Origin: Candidatus Eremiobacteraceae bacterium
Lineage (GTDB): Bacteria > Vulcanimicrobiota > Vulcanimicrobiia > Eremiobacterales > Eremiobacteraceae
Reading direction: 5' to 3'
Length of the DNA: 64,000 bases
NCBI GenBank assembly: GCA_036511855.1
Contig: DATCBN010000050.1
Location: forward strand, 1 to 64,000
The notes beneath the pieces were generated by a model. The model had not been told where the DNA came from, did no database searches, and saw only the letters and a program-made list of their open reading frames with translations. Of the stretch, positions 19,476-61,755 are shown piece after piece. The stretch's first letter is position 1. Every line of letters begins with the position of its first letter. The position numbers were made by a program, and so were the translations under genes.

Positions 19476-20950
19476 GCGCCGACCTGCGCCGGCATGCGCT
19501 ATTCCTCGCCATCCTCGTTCTCGCGCTGCTGCTCCGGCTTTACGGCATCCACAATCCGATCCTCGACCATCCGGGTTGGCGTCAAGGCGACGAAGCGGCG
19601 ATCGCGCGCAACTTCGCGCAATTGCATGACAACATCTTGTATCCTCAGGTCGACTATGACGGGCCGGCGCCCAACTACGCCGAGCTTGAGCTGCAGATCG
19701 TGCCGTTCGTGGCAGCGCAGTTCTACCGCGTCTTTGGAATACACGAGACGATCGCGCGTCTGATCGTGGTCGCGTTCAGTCTCGCCGAAGTGTGGCTGCT
19801 CTATCTTTTCGGACGCGAGGTGTTCTCTCGCCGCGCCGGCCTGATCGCCGCCCTTGCGTATGCGATCGCGCCGGGAGCGGTCTACTACGGGCGCACGATA
19901 ACGCCGGACACCGACATGGTGTTCTTCATGACCGGCGCTATGTATTTCTGGTGGCGATTTTGCGGGCAGCGCCGGCCGGCCGACTTCGCGGCGGCAGCGG
20001 TGTTCGGCGCCATCGCGGTGCTCGCAAAACCCGTCGCGGTGCTCGCGATCGTGCCGGTCATCGCGCTCGTGGTGGCGCGACGCGGCGTCAAGGGCGCGCT
20101 CGAGGACTGGGCGCCATACGCGTTTGTCGTGCTTGCCGGCTTACCGGCGCTCTTCTACTTCGAGCGCCTCAACGCCATCGCAGAATGGCATTGGGCGAGC
20201 GGCATCACTACGCTACACGTCATGCCCGCGCTGCGGGCCGCATTCTCGAGCCCCGCACGGTTCGGCGACGCGGTATTCGGCGCGCTCGCGCTGATGCGGA
20301 TGCTTTCGACCACGATCCTCGGGCCGGCGTTGTTCGCGGCAACGCTTGGCGCGTGGTTCGCGCTGCCGCGTGACGCCGAATCGCATATCCGAGGGTGGTT
20401 TTTCGGCGCCTGGCTTCTCGCGCTTGCGGCTTATGCGTTCGCGGTCGTCAACGTCGAGCGCGTGGATTACTATCTCTTGCCGGCGCTGCCGCTCGCCGCG
20501 CTCTTGGCCGGCGGCGCGCTCGACAACTTGGCCACGCGCATCGGTCTCGCGCCTGCGTCGAGATGGTCGATCGGCGGCGGCATCGTGGCTTTGTTCGTCA
20601 TCGCCTATGCCAACATGCTGGAGGTGCACGCGTACTATACGTGGAGCAGACCCGTCTACGCCGCGGCCGGGGAACTCGACCGGACGCTGGACCAAAACGT
20701 ACTCGTCGTCATGGGCCACTACGATCCGTCGGTGCTCTACACGATCGGCAGAAAAGGTTGGGAAGAGGACCCGCTCATCTGGAACGTTCACGATATGCGC
20801 AGCGCGATGCGAAAAGGCGCCGCGTACTTCATCGGCGTCGAGATCCCGCGCCTCAAAGCCAACCGGCCGCTCTATGCGTATCTGCAACACTTCGCGCGCG
20901 TGCCGGTCTCGTCGGGCTGGCAGGTGTACGACTTGCGTAAGCCGCTGTAG
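19472..20950 (+). CDS. GT39/ArnT-like membrane glycosyltransferase
   Basis: 492 residues, GTG start in a GTGA overlap with gtrA. First loop after helix 1 has HPGWRQGDEAAIARNF with the acidic pair used for catalysis by ArnT/PMT enzymes, then YGRTITPDTDMVFFMTGAM, an acceptor-side motif common in the family, and about 11 hydrophobic helices. Should transfer a polyprenyl-phosphate sugar in the periplasm. With PIG-V-like and GtrA it forms a three-gene envelope glycosylation unit. Followed by a composite hairpin repeat and a convergent gene. Confidence 0.85.
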   Translation: MSADLRRHALFLAILVLALLLRLYGIHNPILDHPGWRQGDEAAIARNFAQLHDNILYPQVDYDGPAPNYAELELQIVPFVAAQFYRVFGIHETIARLIVVAFSLAEVWLLYLFGREVFSRRAGLIAALAYAIAPGAVYYGRTITPDTDMVFFMTGAMYFWWRFCGQRRPADFAAAAVFGAIAVLAKPVAVLAIVPVIALVVARRGVKGALEDWAPYAFVVLAGLPALFYFERLNAIAEWHWASGITTLHVMPALRAAFSSPARFGDAVFGALALMRMLSTTILGPALFAATLGAWFALPRDAESHIRGWFFGAWLLALAAYAFAVVNVERVDYYLLPALPLAALLAGGALDNLATRIGLAPASRWSIGGGIVALFVIAYANMLEVHAYYTWSRPVYAAAGELDRTLDQNVLVVMGHYDPSVLYTIGRKGWEEDPLIWNVHDMRSAMRKGAAYFIGVEIPRLKANRPLYAYLQHFARVPVSSGWQVYDLRKPL

Positions 20951-20971
20951 GGCGACCAATTGTTGTTTGTA

Positions 20972-21074
20972 GGGTGAGTAACCCGTACTAGGGTGAGCAA
21001 CGCTCACCCAATTGGGCAAGCGATGCTTGCCCTAGTACGTGCATAGGAACAAACGGGGCAAGCGATGCTTGCCC
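20972..21074. repeat. Composite double-hairpin intergenic repeat, copy 1
   Basis: Two perfect short palindromes sit side by side: arms GGGTGAGC/GCTCACCC with a 3-base loop (20991-21009) and arms GGGCAAGC/GCTTGCCC with a 3-base loop (21014-21032). The pair is enclosed by GTACTAGGG (20985-20993) and its complement CCCTAGTAC (21030-21038), so it can also fold as a cruciform. A further GGGCAAGC hairpin lies at 21056-21074 and a degenerate GGGT/ACCC one at 20972-20984. The same unit occurs at 57411 and 60258. Here it fills the gap between two convergent genes and may serve as a two-way terminator. It resembles REP-type elements; no transposase is nearby. Confidence 0.85.
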
Positions 21075-21115
21075 TAGTACAATGGCCCTCCTACAGACCA
21101 CTTAACACGTCGTTG

Positions 21116-22300
21116 TTACAGGATCGGCAGCAGGTTGGGCGCGTCCGCGGCGGTGAGAGGAACAGCCGCAACGAACGGGTCCTTCATGCCGATCGCGTCG
21201 CCGCCTTCGACCTGAACCGTCCGGTGGAGATGCATTTCTAACGGCGCACCAAAGAATGCTAGGAGATTGGAGATCGGCTTCGCCAAGACGCCGATGAGCG
21301 GCCTGCGGACCTTGCTTAAGAGCACCGTCCTCTCGAAGAGGCCCCAGAATGCGAAGCAGACGACCAACATCAATGCCACCGCGTACCACCATGCCATGCG
21401 CCCCATAAAGATTCCGAGAAGCGGCTGATGCATCAAATAAATGCTGTATGACGCGATCCCGATCACGCGCAGCGGGAGCCAGGCCATGATCGCCCGGAGC
21501 GGAGCCAACGCGCCGACGCTCAGCACGAACAAGAATGAAGCGATGTGCCAACCGAACTGATCCTGCCCAAGCCAGTAGATCCCCCGAGTGGGTTCGAGCA
21601 GAACGGCCACCGCAATGGCCACGGGCAGGAGGAACGGTGCCCATCTCGTTATCGGGTGTCCGTTCACCCGAACGGCCGCGGCGGCGATCCCGAGCATGAA
21701 ACATGGAAGCGTTCCCATGTCCACTCCTCCGGCGAGCGTGAACTGATAGGCGATGACGCAAGCCGCGATGACCGTCCAAAACGCGCGTCGTTGAGAGATC
21801 CATAACCAAAGCACGATCGGAAAAACCAAGTACCAGCGGAATTCCACCGCGAGGCTCCAAAACGACGAATTCGTCAAGTCGGTGTGGTCGAAGAAAACCA
21901 ATTGGCGGAGTGCTTGCCAAACGGACGGCATCGAGATCGACGTCTGTCCGATCGCGCCTCCCGAATTGATCACGAGTTGCCCGAGCAGGACGATGATGCC
22001 GAGCGCGATCCAATATGGCGGGATGATCCGCACGATGCGTTTGGCGAAGAATTCAGCGACGTTGAAGCGCGTGGCGCCGTTCGCTTTGAGCGCGATCAAC
22101 GTGGGGTACGAGAGACAGAAGCCGGATAGGATGAAGAACAGGTCGACGCCGTGTGCACCTTCATCCAAAACGTGAAGCCAGATCCCTGTCGCCAGTGTCG
22201 GGCCGAAAAGGACGACGTGTCTTATGACGACGAGCGAGACGGCCAGCGCTCGCAATCCGTCGAGATAATCGACGTGCAGGATGTTCGGCGAAGCCTTCAC
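21116..22300 (-). CDS. Acyltransferase 3 (OafA-like) membrane protein
   Basis: 394 residues with around ten hydrophobic helices. The N-terminus carries YLDGLRALAVSLVVIRHV, the R..A...V..(F)H motif of acyltransferase 3, then GVDLFFILSGFCLSYP and FAKRIVRIIPPYW. Such proteins O-acylate surface polysaccharides, using an acyl donor from the cytoplasm. The last 30 residues follow the final helix and end in ADAPNLLPIL, nearly identical to the end of the next upstream gene product; the DNA is a 33-base direct repeat. Convergent with the GT39 gene, from which it is separated by the hairpin repeat. Confidence 0.9.
   Translation of the reverse strand: MKASPNILHVDYLDGLRALAVSLVVIRHVVLFGPTLATGIWLHVLDEGAHGVDLFFILSGFCLSYPTLIALKANGATRFNVAEFFAKRIVRIIPPYWIALGIIVLLGQLVINSGGAIGQTSISMPSVWQALRQLVFFDHTDLTNSSFWSLAVEFRWYLVFPIVLWLWISQRRAFWTVIAACVIAYQFTLAGGVDMGTLPCFMLGIAAAAVRVNGHPITRWAPFLLPVAIAVAVLLEPTRGIYWLGQDQFGWHIASFLFVLSVGALAPLRAIMAWLPLRVIGIASYSIYLMHQPLLGIFMGRMAWWYAVALMLVVCFAFWGLFERTVLLSKVRRPLIGVLAKPISNLLAFFGAPLEMHLHRTVQVEGGDAIGMKDPFVAAVPLTAADAPNLLPIL
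21121..21153. repeat. 33-bp direct repeat, left copy
   Basis: Matches 22356-22388 at 30 of 33 positions, with the first 16 bases identical (starting GGATCGGCAGCAGGTT). It encodes the last ten or so residues of the acyltransferase; the right copy encodes the end of the TPR lipoprotein. The two copies bracket the acyltransferase gene. Confidence 0.8.
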
Positions 22301-57374: not shown

Positions 57375-57410
57375 GCGTCTGTACCCTCAGTTCTTTTGTA
57401 GGGGCCGACC

Positions 57411-57463
57411 GTATTAGGGCAAGCATCGCTTGCCCATTGGGTGAGCGTTGCTCACCCTACTAT
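57411..57463. repeat. Composite double-hairpin intergenic repeat, copy 2 (inverted)
   Basis: Reverse orientation relative to copy 1. GGGCAAGC/GCTTGCCC hairpin at 57417-57435 and GGGTGAGC/GCTCACCC at 57439-57457, with an ATT spacer and a TA-rich flank. It lies between leuD and leuB and its right flank runs into the leuD stop codon at 57460. Confidence 0.85.
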
Positions 57464-59355: not shown

Positions 59356-60222
59356 TCACTTGCCGGCGTAGGACGTCACATCGAAGTAGAGCTTTTCCGT
59401 GGATTTGTCCGTCGAACAGGTCACATCGAACGTGTCGATCCACTTCGCGCCGAGCGCCATGGTCGTCTGCGTGATCACGTTCCAGGTTCCGCCCAACGCG
59501 CACCTGAGGCCGTTGATGTACCCATACTCCAGGTCTGTTCCAGCTCCGCTCGTCGCTGCGTTGACGACGATCGCGAGTTCGGGAGTGGATCCGTCGTGGC
59601 CGAGGCTGACATCGATCGAAGACGGCGCCGCTATTGACGGCGTGCCCACTTGCTGCGAGACGTTGATGTCGGTTATCAGCCCGCTGTCGAATCCGTAAAC
59701 CCATCGCACGCCGGCGAGATCGCCATACGCTCGATTGCCGTTGTCCGCAACCGTCACCGGCTGGCCTCGCAACGAAGTCAGTTGATCGACGGTCATGCCG
59801 AGCACGACGCCGTATGGATCTGCGAAAGTGGATTTCTTTCCGGTGCGCGTGCTCAAGGTGATGCTCAACGCCCCGCTGTTGCCGAAGATGACCGAGAGCC
59901 GCGCGTTGCCGCCGTCCGCATTGTAGCGCCACATCTCGCCGATGTTCACCGGATCGATCTCGAACGGCTTGCCGAGATTTTTCTTCACGGCGGCCGGAGC
60001 GTCGCCGAGCGTCACGCTATCGAATGCGTTGAGAACGGGCGTCGGTACGGGCGCCGGGGCCGGCAAGGGCATCGGTGTGGCCGATGTAAGTTCGCCGGGC
60101 AATGGCGCTGGTGTCACGGTCGTGTATGGCGTCGTTTGCGGCGCCGGCGACGCGGATGAAGCGTCCGACGGAGCCGGACCATACGCAGCGATCATCGCGG
60201 TCAATGCCAGCACCGAGAGCAT
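59356..60222 (-). CDS. Secreted protein with two similar small domains
   Basis: 288 residues. Signal-like N-terminus (MLSVLALTAMIAAY) then a Pro/Thr/Ala-rich linker to about residue 65. Two related segments follow: VTLGDAPAAVKKNLGKPFEI with a Trp-containing strand (MWRYNADGG), and VVLGMTVDQLTSLRGQPVTV with VRWVYGFDSG. Both read like a short helix-turn followed by beta strands, as in SmpA/BamE-type repeats. The C-terminal half (about 185-288) is unassigned. An AGGAG site is 8 bases before the ATG. Function unknown; probably in the envelope. Confidence 0.7.
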   Translation of the reverse strand: MLSVLALTAMIAAYGPAPSDASSASPAPQTTPYTTVTPAPLPGELTSATPMPLPAPAPVPTPVLNAFDSVTLGDAPAAVKKNLGKPFEIDPVNIGEMWRYNADGGNARLSVIFGNSGALSITLSTRTGKKSTFADPYGVVLGMTVDQLTSLRGQPVTVADNGNRAYGDLAGVRWVYGFDSGLITDINVSQQVGTPSIAAPSSIDVSLGHDGSTPELAIVVNAATSGAGTDLEYGYINGLRCALGGTWNVITQTTMALGAKWIDTFDVTCSTDKSTEKLYFDVTSYAGK

Positions 60223-60257
60223 CCCAGAATCTCCTTCGCTTTGCCGACCCTGTAGGA

Positions 60258-60320
60258 GGGTGAGCAGCGCTCACCCATTTTTGGGCAAGCGATGCTTGCC
60301 CTAGTACGGGTCGCTCACCC
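60258..60320. repeat. Composite double-hairpin intergenic repeat, copy 3
   Basis: Same orientation as copy 1: GGGTGAGC/GCTCACCC at 60258-60276 with an AGC loop... the loop differs by one base from copy 1, then a five-T spacer and GGGCAAGC/GCTTGCCC at 60283-60301, followed by TAGTAC and a partial third arm (60308-60320). Lies between the APC permease end and the secreted-protein gene, both minus. Confidence 0.85.
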
Positions 60321-60366: not shown

Positions 60367-61755
60367 TCAGGCCGCGGGTCGCTGCTCGACGGGAACGAGC
60401 CGGCGGCGCATGGCCGCCGCGTAGAACAGGCCGGCAACGACGGCCCCCACTGCTAGCCATTGCACGTTGGGAGCCAAGCTCGCGAAGTTGATCGCGAGCA
60501 AAGCCACGATGGCCGCGACGCCGAGCAGCGGCAGCACGACTCGGGTGAGATCGGTTGGCCGCGCGCCTTCGCGAAGGAAGTAGGTGGCGCACGCGAGTCC
60601 GGTGATGATAAACGTGAGCCCCAGCACAAACGTCTCCGTGTCCAAGACGTAAATCCACTGTGCGTAGACATTGGGCGCGAAGCCCGTCAAGAGCGTGACG
60701 ACGAGCACACCGACGTTGATGGCGGCGATGCTGATGTGCGGCGTGCCGAATTGCGGATGCACGTCGGTGAGGACGCGCGGGAACAGCCGGTCGCGAGCCA
60801 TCGAAAACGCGATGCGCGATAGACCGAGTTGTGTGGTCCACAGCGTGGCGCCGGTGGACAGCAGCACGATCACCACCATCACATCGGTGAAGTAGCCGCC
60901 GCCTAATTGCGCGGCGACGTAGGCCAGCGTGTCGTCGGCATGGCTGGCAAATGCTTGAAGCGGACCGATGCGCATGAACGCCACCATGCACAACAGCGTC
61001 AACGATGTGGTGAAGACCAGCCCGATGAGGCCGCCTTTGCCGGGATCTTTCGAAGTGCCCTTACCTTCCTCAGACGTGCAGCTCGAGACTTCCCAACCGT
61101 CGATCACCCAGATGGCCGAGACCATGGCGCCGGCGAATCCCGCCATGCCGAGCGGGCCCAGCGTGAACAGCGATGTGCGAATCGCTGCGTGCTGCGCGAC
61201 CGGATGCGCGAACGCCAGTCCGACGAACAAGAGCAAGGCGGCGATCTCGAGCCAAAGGAACAGACCCGATGCGTTGGCGGTGGGCTTGACGCCGCCGATC
61301 AGCAAGATGCTTGCGCCGACCACCCAGAGGCCGCCGGCCACCGCGACCGCGGCAGGCTGCACCACGAGGCTCGCCGGCACCAGATGGATGTGCGGATCGG
61401 AAAGGAGTTCCAGCGTATAGGTTCCCGCCGGAACGACTGCCGCCACAGCGCCGAAGAAGTACGAAAGAACGACGATCCACGCCGAAAACGCGCCGGCAGT
61501 GCGGCCGAATACGATGCGCGACCACGCGTAGGTGGAGCCCGCGTCGGGGCGCGCTGCGCACAGGCGATGAAACGAGAGCGCGATGAATGCGACGGGGATG
61601 GCGAGCACGAGCAGCGCGAGCGGAGCGCCGGCGCCCGCTGCCGCGATCATGACGCCGAACGTGGTGGCGATGGAATACGCGGGCGCCATGCTGGCCGACG
61701 CCAATATCGAAAGATCGCCCAGGCCGAGGACCCGGGCCAAACTGCGCTGGGACAT
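60367..61755 (-). CDS. APC-superfamily amino acid/polyamine permease
   Basis: 462 residues with about 12 hydrophobic helices. Early LGLGDLSILASASMAPAYSI, then VIDGWEVSSCTSEEGKGTSKDP and LGLSRIAFSMARDRLFPRVL with the conserved loop. Cytoplasmic membrane transporter, probably for amino acids, energised by ion exchange. Its promoter and a leader hairpin are visible just upstream. No ribosome site is evident before the ATG. Confidence 0.9.
   Translation of the reverse strand: MSQRSLARVLGLGDLSILASASMAPAYSIATTFGVMIAAAGAGAPLALLVLAIPVAFIALSFHRLCAARPDAGSTYAWSRIVFGRTAGAFSAWIVVLSYFFGAVAAVVPAGTYTLELLSDPHIHLVPASLVVQPAAVAVAGGLWVVGASILLIGGVKPTANASGLFLWLEIAALLLFVGLAFAHPVAQHAAIRTSLFTLGPLGMAGFAGAMVSAIWVIDGWEVSSCTSEEGKGTSKDPGKGGLIGLVFTTSLTLLCMVAFMRIGPLQAFASHADDTLAYVAAQLGGGYFTDVMVVIVLLSTGATLWTTQLGLSRIAFSMARDRLFPRVLTDVHPQFGTPHISIAAINVGVLVVTLLTGFAPNVYAQWIYVLDTETFVLGLTFIITGLACATYFLREGARPTDLTRVVLPLLGVAAIVALLAINFASLAPNVQWLAVGAVVAGLFYAAAMRRRLVPVEQRPAA

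Follow-up and report, generated by a model that had tools for sequence, protein, structure and literature searches.

RESULTS

Paired Hairpins at Three Intergenic Loci

The window, by which we mean the whole 64,000-nucleotide stretch of DNA that was analyzed, contains seven hairpins in three clusters; six of them are paired in three inverted doublets, and the seventh (21056-21074) is an additional single unit. The hairpins are of two types: the TGAGC type, GGGTGAGC-N3-GCTCACCC, is found at 20991, 57439, and 60258, and the CAAGC type, GGGCAAGC-N3-GCTTGCCC, is found at 21014, 21056, 57417, and 60283. A preliminary description of this DNA had quoted these sequences and placed them at three sites. 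All of them lie where it had placed them, but the hairpins were undercounted, and the unit at 21056-21074 was left unnamed.

Copy 1 is situated between converging genes for a PMT_2-type glycosyltransferase and an acyltransferase, which have their stop codons at 20950 and 21116. Its left half is a REP unit on the plus strand (20985-21009), in which the foot GTACTA (20985-20990) is followed by a TGAGC-type hairpin (20991-21009). After a spacer of sequence AATT (21010-21013; no strand applies), the right half is a REP unit on the minus strand (21014-21038) that consists of a CAAGC-type hairpin (21014-21032) and the foot TAGTAC (21033-21038). Both hairpins are enclosed by a further pair, GTACTAGGG (20985) with CCCTAGTAC (21030), just as had been described. 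A third, CAAGC-type REP unit with the foot TAGTAC lies at 21056-21080 on the minus strand, in tandem with the preceding unit at a 42 bp step. The cluster also contains two 3'-truncated REP stubs, of which one (GTAGGGTGAGTAACCC, 20969-20984, plus strand) abuts the GTACTA foot of copy 1 and the other (21081-21094, with the minus-strand reading GTAGGAGGGCCATT) precedes the foot of the third unit. When the copy 1 doublet was folded as DNA, the enclosed two-hairpin form was obtained (-21.9 kcal/mol), and none of 200 shuffled sequences folded as well. When it was folded as RNA, a single long hairpin was preferred (-40.1), via G-U pairs.

Copy 2 begins approximately 2 bp past the stop codon of a leuD-like gene, in the interval between this gene and a leuB-like gene of a leu gene cluster. 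The left half (57411-57435, plus strand) has the foot GTATTA and a CAAGC-type hairpin, and the right half (57439-57463, minus strand) has a TGAGC-type hairpin and a degenerate foot that reads ATAGTA on the minus strand. The copy is abutted by GTAGGGGCCGACC (57398-57410, plus strand), the 5' part of a REP from another, rarer family. Copy 3 lies between an amino-acid permease gene, which has its stop codon at 60367, and the next gene, which starts at 60222. It combines a plus-strand unit with the foot GTAGGA and a TGAGC-type hairpin (left half, 60252-60276) and a minus-strand unit with a CAAGC-type hairpin and the foot TAGTAC (right half, 60283-60307), outside which there is a REP remnant on the minus strand, GGGTGAGCGACCC (60308-60320). 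Our gene calls, which were made with a home-made hexamer model and not with a standard annotator, bear out at all three loci the earlier statement that every copy in the window is intergenic.

A Large Family of Foot-Plus-Hairpin Units

The genome from which the window comes (G000) is a fragmented assembly of 3,069,576 bases in 112 contigs, and its copy numbers and cluster structure are therefore approximate. Whole-genome figures were obtained by pattern searches only, with the reversed pattern as the control. CAAGC hairpins numbered 450 with up to one mismatch (1 for the control) and 499 with up to two (9 for the control), and TGAGC hairpins numbered 141 with up to one mismatch (0 for the control). 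These counts are far beyond chance, and the large REP/BIME-like genomic family that had been suspected from the window is present, with its members spread through the whole genome. Approximately 1.16 Mb of stretches, containing 256 units in 121 clusters, served as the detailed sample; as the larger sample was partly picked from REP-bearing contigs, densities should be taken from the whole-genome counts.

The unit is polar: a 5' foot (GTAC or GTAG plus two nucleotides) is followed by an 8 bp stem with a 3 nt loop, usually ATC in CAAGC stems and AAC in TGAGC stems. Feet seen directly 5' of the stem were GTACTA, GTAGGA, GTAGTA, GTACGA, and GTATTA. When sites were chosen by the foot and GGG alone, 88 of 121 had a perfect 8 bp stem and 12 more had a single mismatch (100/121). 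The stems fall into four classes (CAAGC, TGAGC, CGAGC, and TTAGC), which differ by compensatory changes, indicating that the hairpin itself is conserved and not merely its letters. The units thus resemble REPs of the GTAG class in being palindromes of 20-40 bp with many, mostly extragenic copies and in keeping their stem through compensatory changes. The rarer REP-like family to which the truncated copy next to copy 2 belongs, GTAGGGGCCGACnTTTATGGTCGGC, had about 15 matches in the 1.16 Mb and is abundant in the congener G004.

A GTAC Foot and Truncated Stubs

An unpaired GTAG-like motif at the end of the unit, as in the GTAG class, is also present, and a fourth-position variant, GTAC, is its majority form: the genome contains 334 units with an exact GTACnA foot and 166 with GTAGnA (controls, 0). 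The two kinds of unit differ in what lies upstream of them. Among distinct units with a GTAC foot, 48 of 123 have a 3'-truncated REP stub directly before it, compared with 2 of 76 GTAG units; we rely on this contrast because the control region at -60 to -31 (50/223) is inflated by whole neighboring REPs in arrays. The stub most often starts 14 nt before the foot in CAAGC units and 19 nt before it in TGAGC units. GTAC feet are preceded mostly by C and GTAG feet mostly by T, and the dinucleotide before the GTAC foot is CC, CT, or TC, not GT or GA as in vitro (PMC8266576), a comparison that depends on where the cut would lie. GTAC may represent a true change of foot, or the GTAC units may be compound units with a working GTAG farther upstream.

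Inverted Doublets Are Nearly Always Heterodimers

Among pairs of units separated by no more than 15 nt in the 1.16 Mb sample, 61 were arranged with their feet outward, 3 with their feet inward, and 8 in tandem, so that inverted doublets exceed the other pair types as they do in REPINs; simple foot-out doublets made up 34 of the 121 clusters in this sample. This excess identifies the double hairpin as an inverted REP doublet, that is, a REPIN. The composite structure proposed in the preliminary description is therefore real, but it is not the elementary unit, which is the foot-plus-hairpin REP and which also occurs singly and in tandem.

Heterodimers accounted for 57 of the 61 short-gap inverted doublets. 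Reshuffling of the members gave an expectation of 35, and the observed number was never reached in 20,000 shuffles; class frequencies gave an expectation of 48%; among tandem pairs only 17 of 57 were heterodimers. The order of the two members relative to gene direction (11 versus 6) involves too few cases to count. A heterodimer preference has been described as having no obvious explanation (PMC3733652). Here, the simplest reading is that the doublets descend from a single founder, a TGAGC-CAAGC REPIN. A second reading is selection against perfect palindromes, an idea put forward by Di Nocera et al. for other REP families (PMC3733652), and a third is that homodimers were lost in short-read assembly.

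Two RAYT Genes Flanked by the Same Hairpins

The absence of a transposase, which had been pointed out earlier, holds for the window and not for the genome, which encodes two Y1 transposases (Y1_Tnp) elsewhere, on contigs C109 and C4. The C109 gene has an open frame with PDHVH and YITQNP motifs. Its product combines a Y1_Tnp domain (PF01797, 40.4 bits) with an HUH motif and a catalytic Tyr, and it scores 96.1 bits against the NCBIfam equivalog REP_Tyr_transpos (NF047646; cut-off 80). The C4 gene (L017:1426-1900) is frameshifted before the YIxxNP Tyr motif, and five REP units remain on its flanks. Both are RAYT genes flanked by cognate REPs, of the CAAGC/TGAGC family and with their feet outward; those 5' of the C109 gene are degenerate. 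No relative turned up when genome contigs were scanned with the RAYT protein, and a phmmer search with this protein against PDB sequences gave no match at E ≤ 0.001.

We found 15 RAYT loci in 14 genomes of the bacterial family. At 13 of these, one hairpin type was present at both ends of the gene; of the other two, one had a hairpin on one side and one had none. The type of the flanking hairpin differs between lineages and mostly has a GTAG-like foot. The RAYT loci of the congeners contain tandem arrays of RAYT-cognate hairpins with other sequences, eight in G005 (L026:1124-1381) and four in G004 (L019:1-173).

Location at Gene 3' Ends and the Case for Termination

REP units were found at 48 of 158 convergent gene junctions (30%), 46 of 670 codirectional junctions (7%), and 5 of 146 divergent junctions (3%), an enrichment at convergent junctions with P = 6e-14 relative to codirectional and P = 9e-11 relative to divergent ones. 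In the 220 units that neighbor a stop codon, the nearest one lay a median of 38 bp away, and the foot faced it in 150. The test set in the preliminary description for a REP-like family was the combination of many intergenic copies at 3' ends with a RAYT gene, and the genome has both. Intragenic REPs, which are known from other species (PMC3733652), also occur: nine VLGQASLAQRRDRT-like units in the same orientation lie in frame, with a period of 42 bp (14 codons), inside a permease open reading frame (L037:3957-5129; G000:C4:123957-125129). This frame matches the ArsP_1 permease at 34.2 bits (cut-off 32.3), and the other two frames contain stop codons.

The position 3' of genes, including 30% of convergent junctions, would also suit hairpins that are primarily intrinsic terminators, often bidirectional, kept by selection and not mobile. 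When the spacer of CAAGC/TGAGC doublets is read on the TGAGC-first strand, 18 of 46 contain a run of at least four T and 4 of 46 contain an A-run. A T-tract is thus frequent after the TGAGC hairpin, and 27 of 99 units have a run of at least four T within 12 nt after the hairpin. However, 24 of the 46 doublets contain neither four consecutive T nor four consecutive A, and such runs are also lacking in 56 of the 99 units of the first sample, and the T-tails at codirectional positions have no sense-strand bias (6 versus 5). Termination also leaves unexplained the conserved foot, the lineage-specific sequence, the flanking of RAYT genes, the tandem arrays, the intragenic copies, and the empty sites in congeners described below, and we consider it an unlikely account of the family. 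The T-tail and strand-bias tests do not support terminator activity as the main function; such a role is possible for the subset of REPs that have a T-run.

The Family Differs between Congeners

We compared G000 with two congeners, G004 and G005, to which its median protein identity is about 67-70% (about 89% between the two). All three REP sites of the window are empty in both. The congeners have the genes that flank sites 2 and 3 but lack the REPIN there. Site 1 is not a clean REP-only difference, since both congeners also lack the acyltransferase gene (21116-22300) at this place; a gene may have been gained or lost beside the REP cluster. Where a REP accompanies a conserved gene pair in either of two compared genomes, it is mostly present on one side only, and G004 and G005 share a REP at 4 of 9 conserved gene pairs. 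No clean insertion junction fit for reading a target site was found among the G004 and G005 pairs.

In their whole genomes, the congeners have 78 and 65 CAAGC hairpins, compared with 450 in G000, and their exact feet are GTAG in 48 and 30 cases and GTAC in 0 and 2. The TGAGC hairpin was confined to G000 among the sampled parts of the three genomes. In each congener, the hairpin that is abundant locally belongs to its own RAYT, with 57 and 42 copies in the samples of G004 and G005 and none in that of G000. As no CAAGC-flanked RAYT was found in G004 or G005 (assemblies 95-96% complete), the congeners may carry an orphan, decaying CAAGC set.

These comparisons bear on the idea that the hairpins are sites for a nucleoid protein, for gyrase, or for replication, with a fixed role that is independent of RAYT. 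High copy number would fit such a site, as would the placing of palindromes between converging genes, where supercoils presumably collect. A fixed role is difficult to reconcile with a copy number that is 6-7 times lower within the genus and near zero elsewhere in the bacterial family, with hairpins that differ between genera and match each genus's own RAYT, and with REP positions that are mostly not conserved across the genus, and we regard it as very improbable. Least credible is a MITE family moved by a DDE-type transposase, or a set of decayed insertion-sequence ends, which a short inverted repeat present hundreds of times might bring to mind, because the terminal inverted repeats are hairpins with asymmetric feet, units are also found alone or in tandem, there was no sign of target-site duplication, and Y1/RAYT genes were the only ones found to have units at both ends.

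DISCUSSION

We consider it highly probable that the hairpins are a GTAG-class REP family, mostly in the form of REPINs, and that they are non-autonomous single-stranded DNA elements mobilized in trans by the cognate RAYT, a process that has been studied for TnpA-REP (PMC8266576). The existence of the family, its copy number and anatomy, the REP-flanked cognate RAYT, the location at 3' ends, and the presence/absence differences from the congeners are observations. Two others count against this account: the frameshift in one RAYT gene, and a commonest foot that is GTAC and not GTAG. RAYT binding, cutting, and chemistry, current activity, and any host function are what we infer. When single-stranded DNA is exposed, the REP would fold to a stem-loop; the RAYT, an HUH/Y1 enzyme, would recognize the hairpin and foot, cut nearby, and join the strand elsewhere, and new REPIN copies would thus arise without a large element or a target duplication. 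Copies that insert downstream of genes, especially where two genes converge, would be tolerated, and some REPs that have a T-run after the hairpin may act secondarily as terminators or stabilizers of mRNA ends.

The testable features that define GTAG-class REPs, REPINs, and RAYTs are all present, the foot in a variant form, and the CAAGC/TGAGC family is a new REP/REPIN-RAYT family of a well-known kind. It shares with the GTAG-class REPs (Di Nocera et al., 2013; PMC3733652) the palindrome of 20-40 bp, the unpaired GTAG-like foot, the 8 bp stem, and the 3 nt loop, as well as compensatory subfamilies, head-head dimers, heterodimers, cognate RAYT genes (REPtrons), a location between convergent or unidirectional open reading frames, and occasional intragenic copies. 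It differs from them in its dominant GTAC foot, in the many GTAC units preceded by stubs, and in its host, Ca. Eremiobacterota. As in REPINs (Bertels and Rainey, 2011; PMC3116915), spaced inverted REP doublets linked to a RAYT are the apparent replicative unit, whereas here the spacer is very short, at 1-15 nt, and nearly all pairs are heterodimers of two stem classes. Paired REP-type palindromes 3' of genes and a RAYT gene are likewise features of E. coli REP/BIME with TnpA-REP, but here the stem is unbulged and the sequence is unrelated.

The REPtron of Stenotrophomonas maltophilia (TnpA-REP group 3; PMC8266576) also has a perfect 8 bp palindrome, a 3 nt loop, a GTAG foot, and an HUH/Y1 transposase. 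In that system, a change of the foot to GTAC abolished cleavage by the RAYT in vitro (PMC8266576), whereas GTAC is the commonest natural foot here. The GTAC foot is of note in view of the role in guiding the cut site that is ascribed to GTAG (PMC8266576). We tentatively suggest, as a possibility about which we are more doubtful than confident, that the RAYT/REP foot shifted from GTAG to GTAC in this lineage, giving compound units of a truncated GTAG-REP stub plus GTAC. If this were so, the foot shift and the CAAGC × TGAGC rule would together amount to a natural change of guide foot with doublets that avoid a perfect DNA palindrome; on the TGAGC-first strand, the two halves of such a doublet can still pair in RNA through G-U.

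A limited literature search found no published report on REP or RAYT in Eremiobacterota. The strength of the heterodimer rule in this family bears on the preference for which the literature sees no obvious explanation (PMC3733652). The family extends the range of REPIN-RAYT systems to the uncultured phylum Ca. Eremiobacterota, and it does so as a clear case: the cognate transposase gene is present, the copies run into the hundreds, and in the sister genomes the hairpin is scarcer and the RAYTs are associated with other hairpins.
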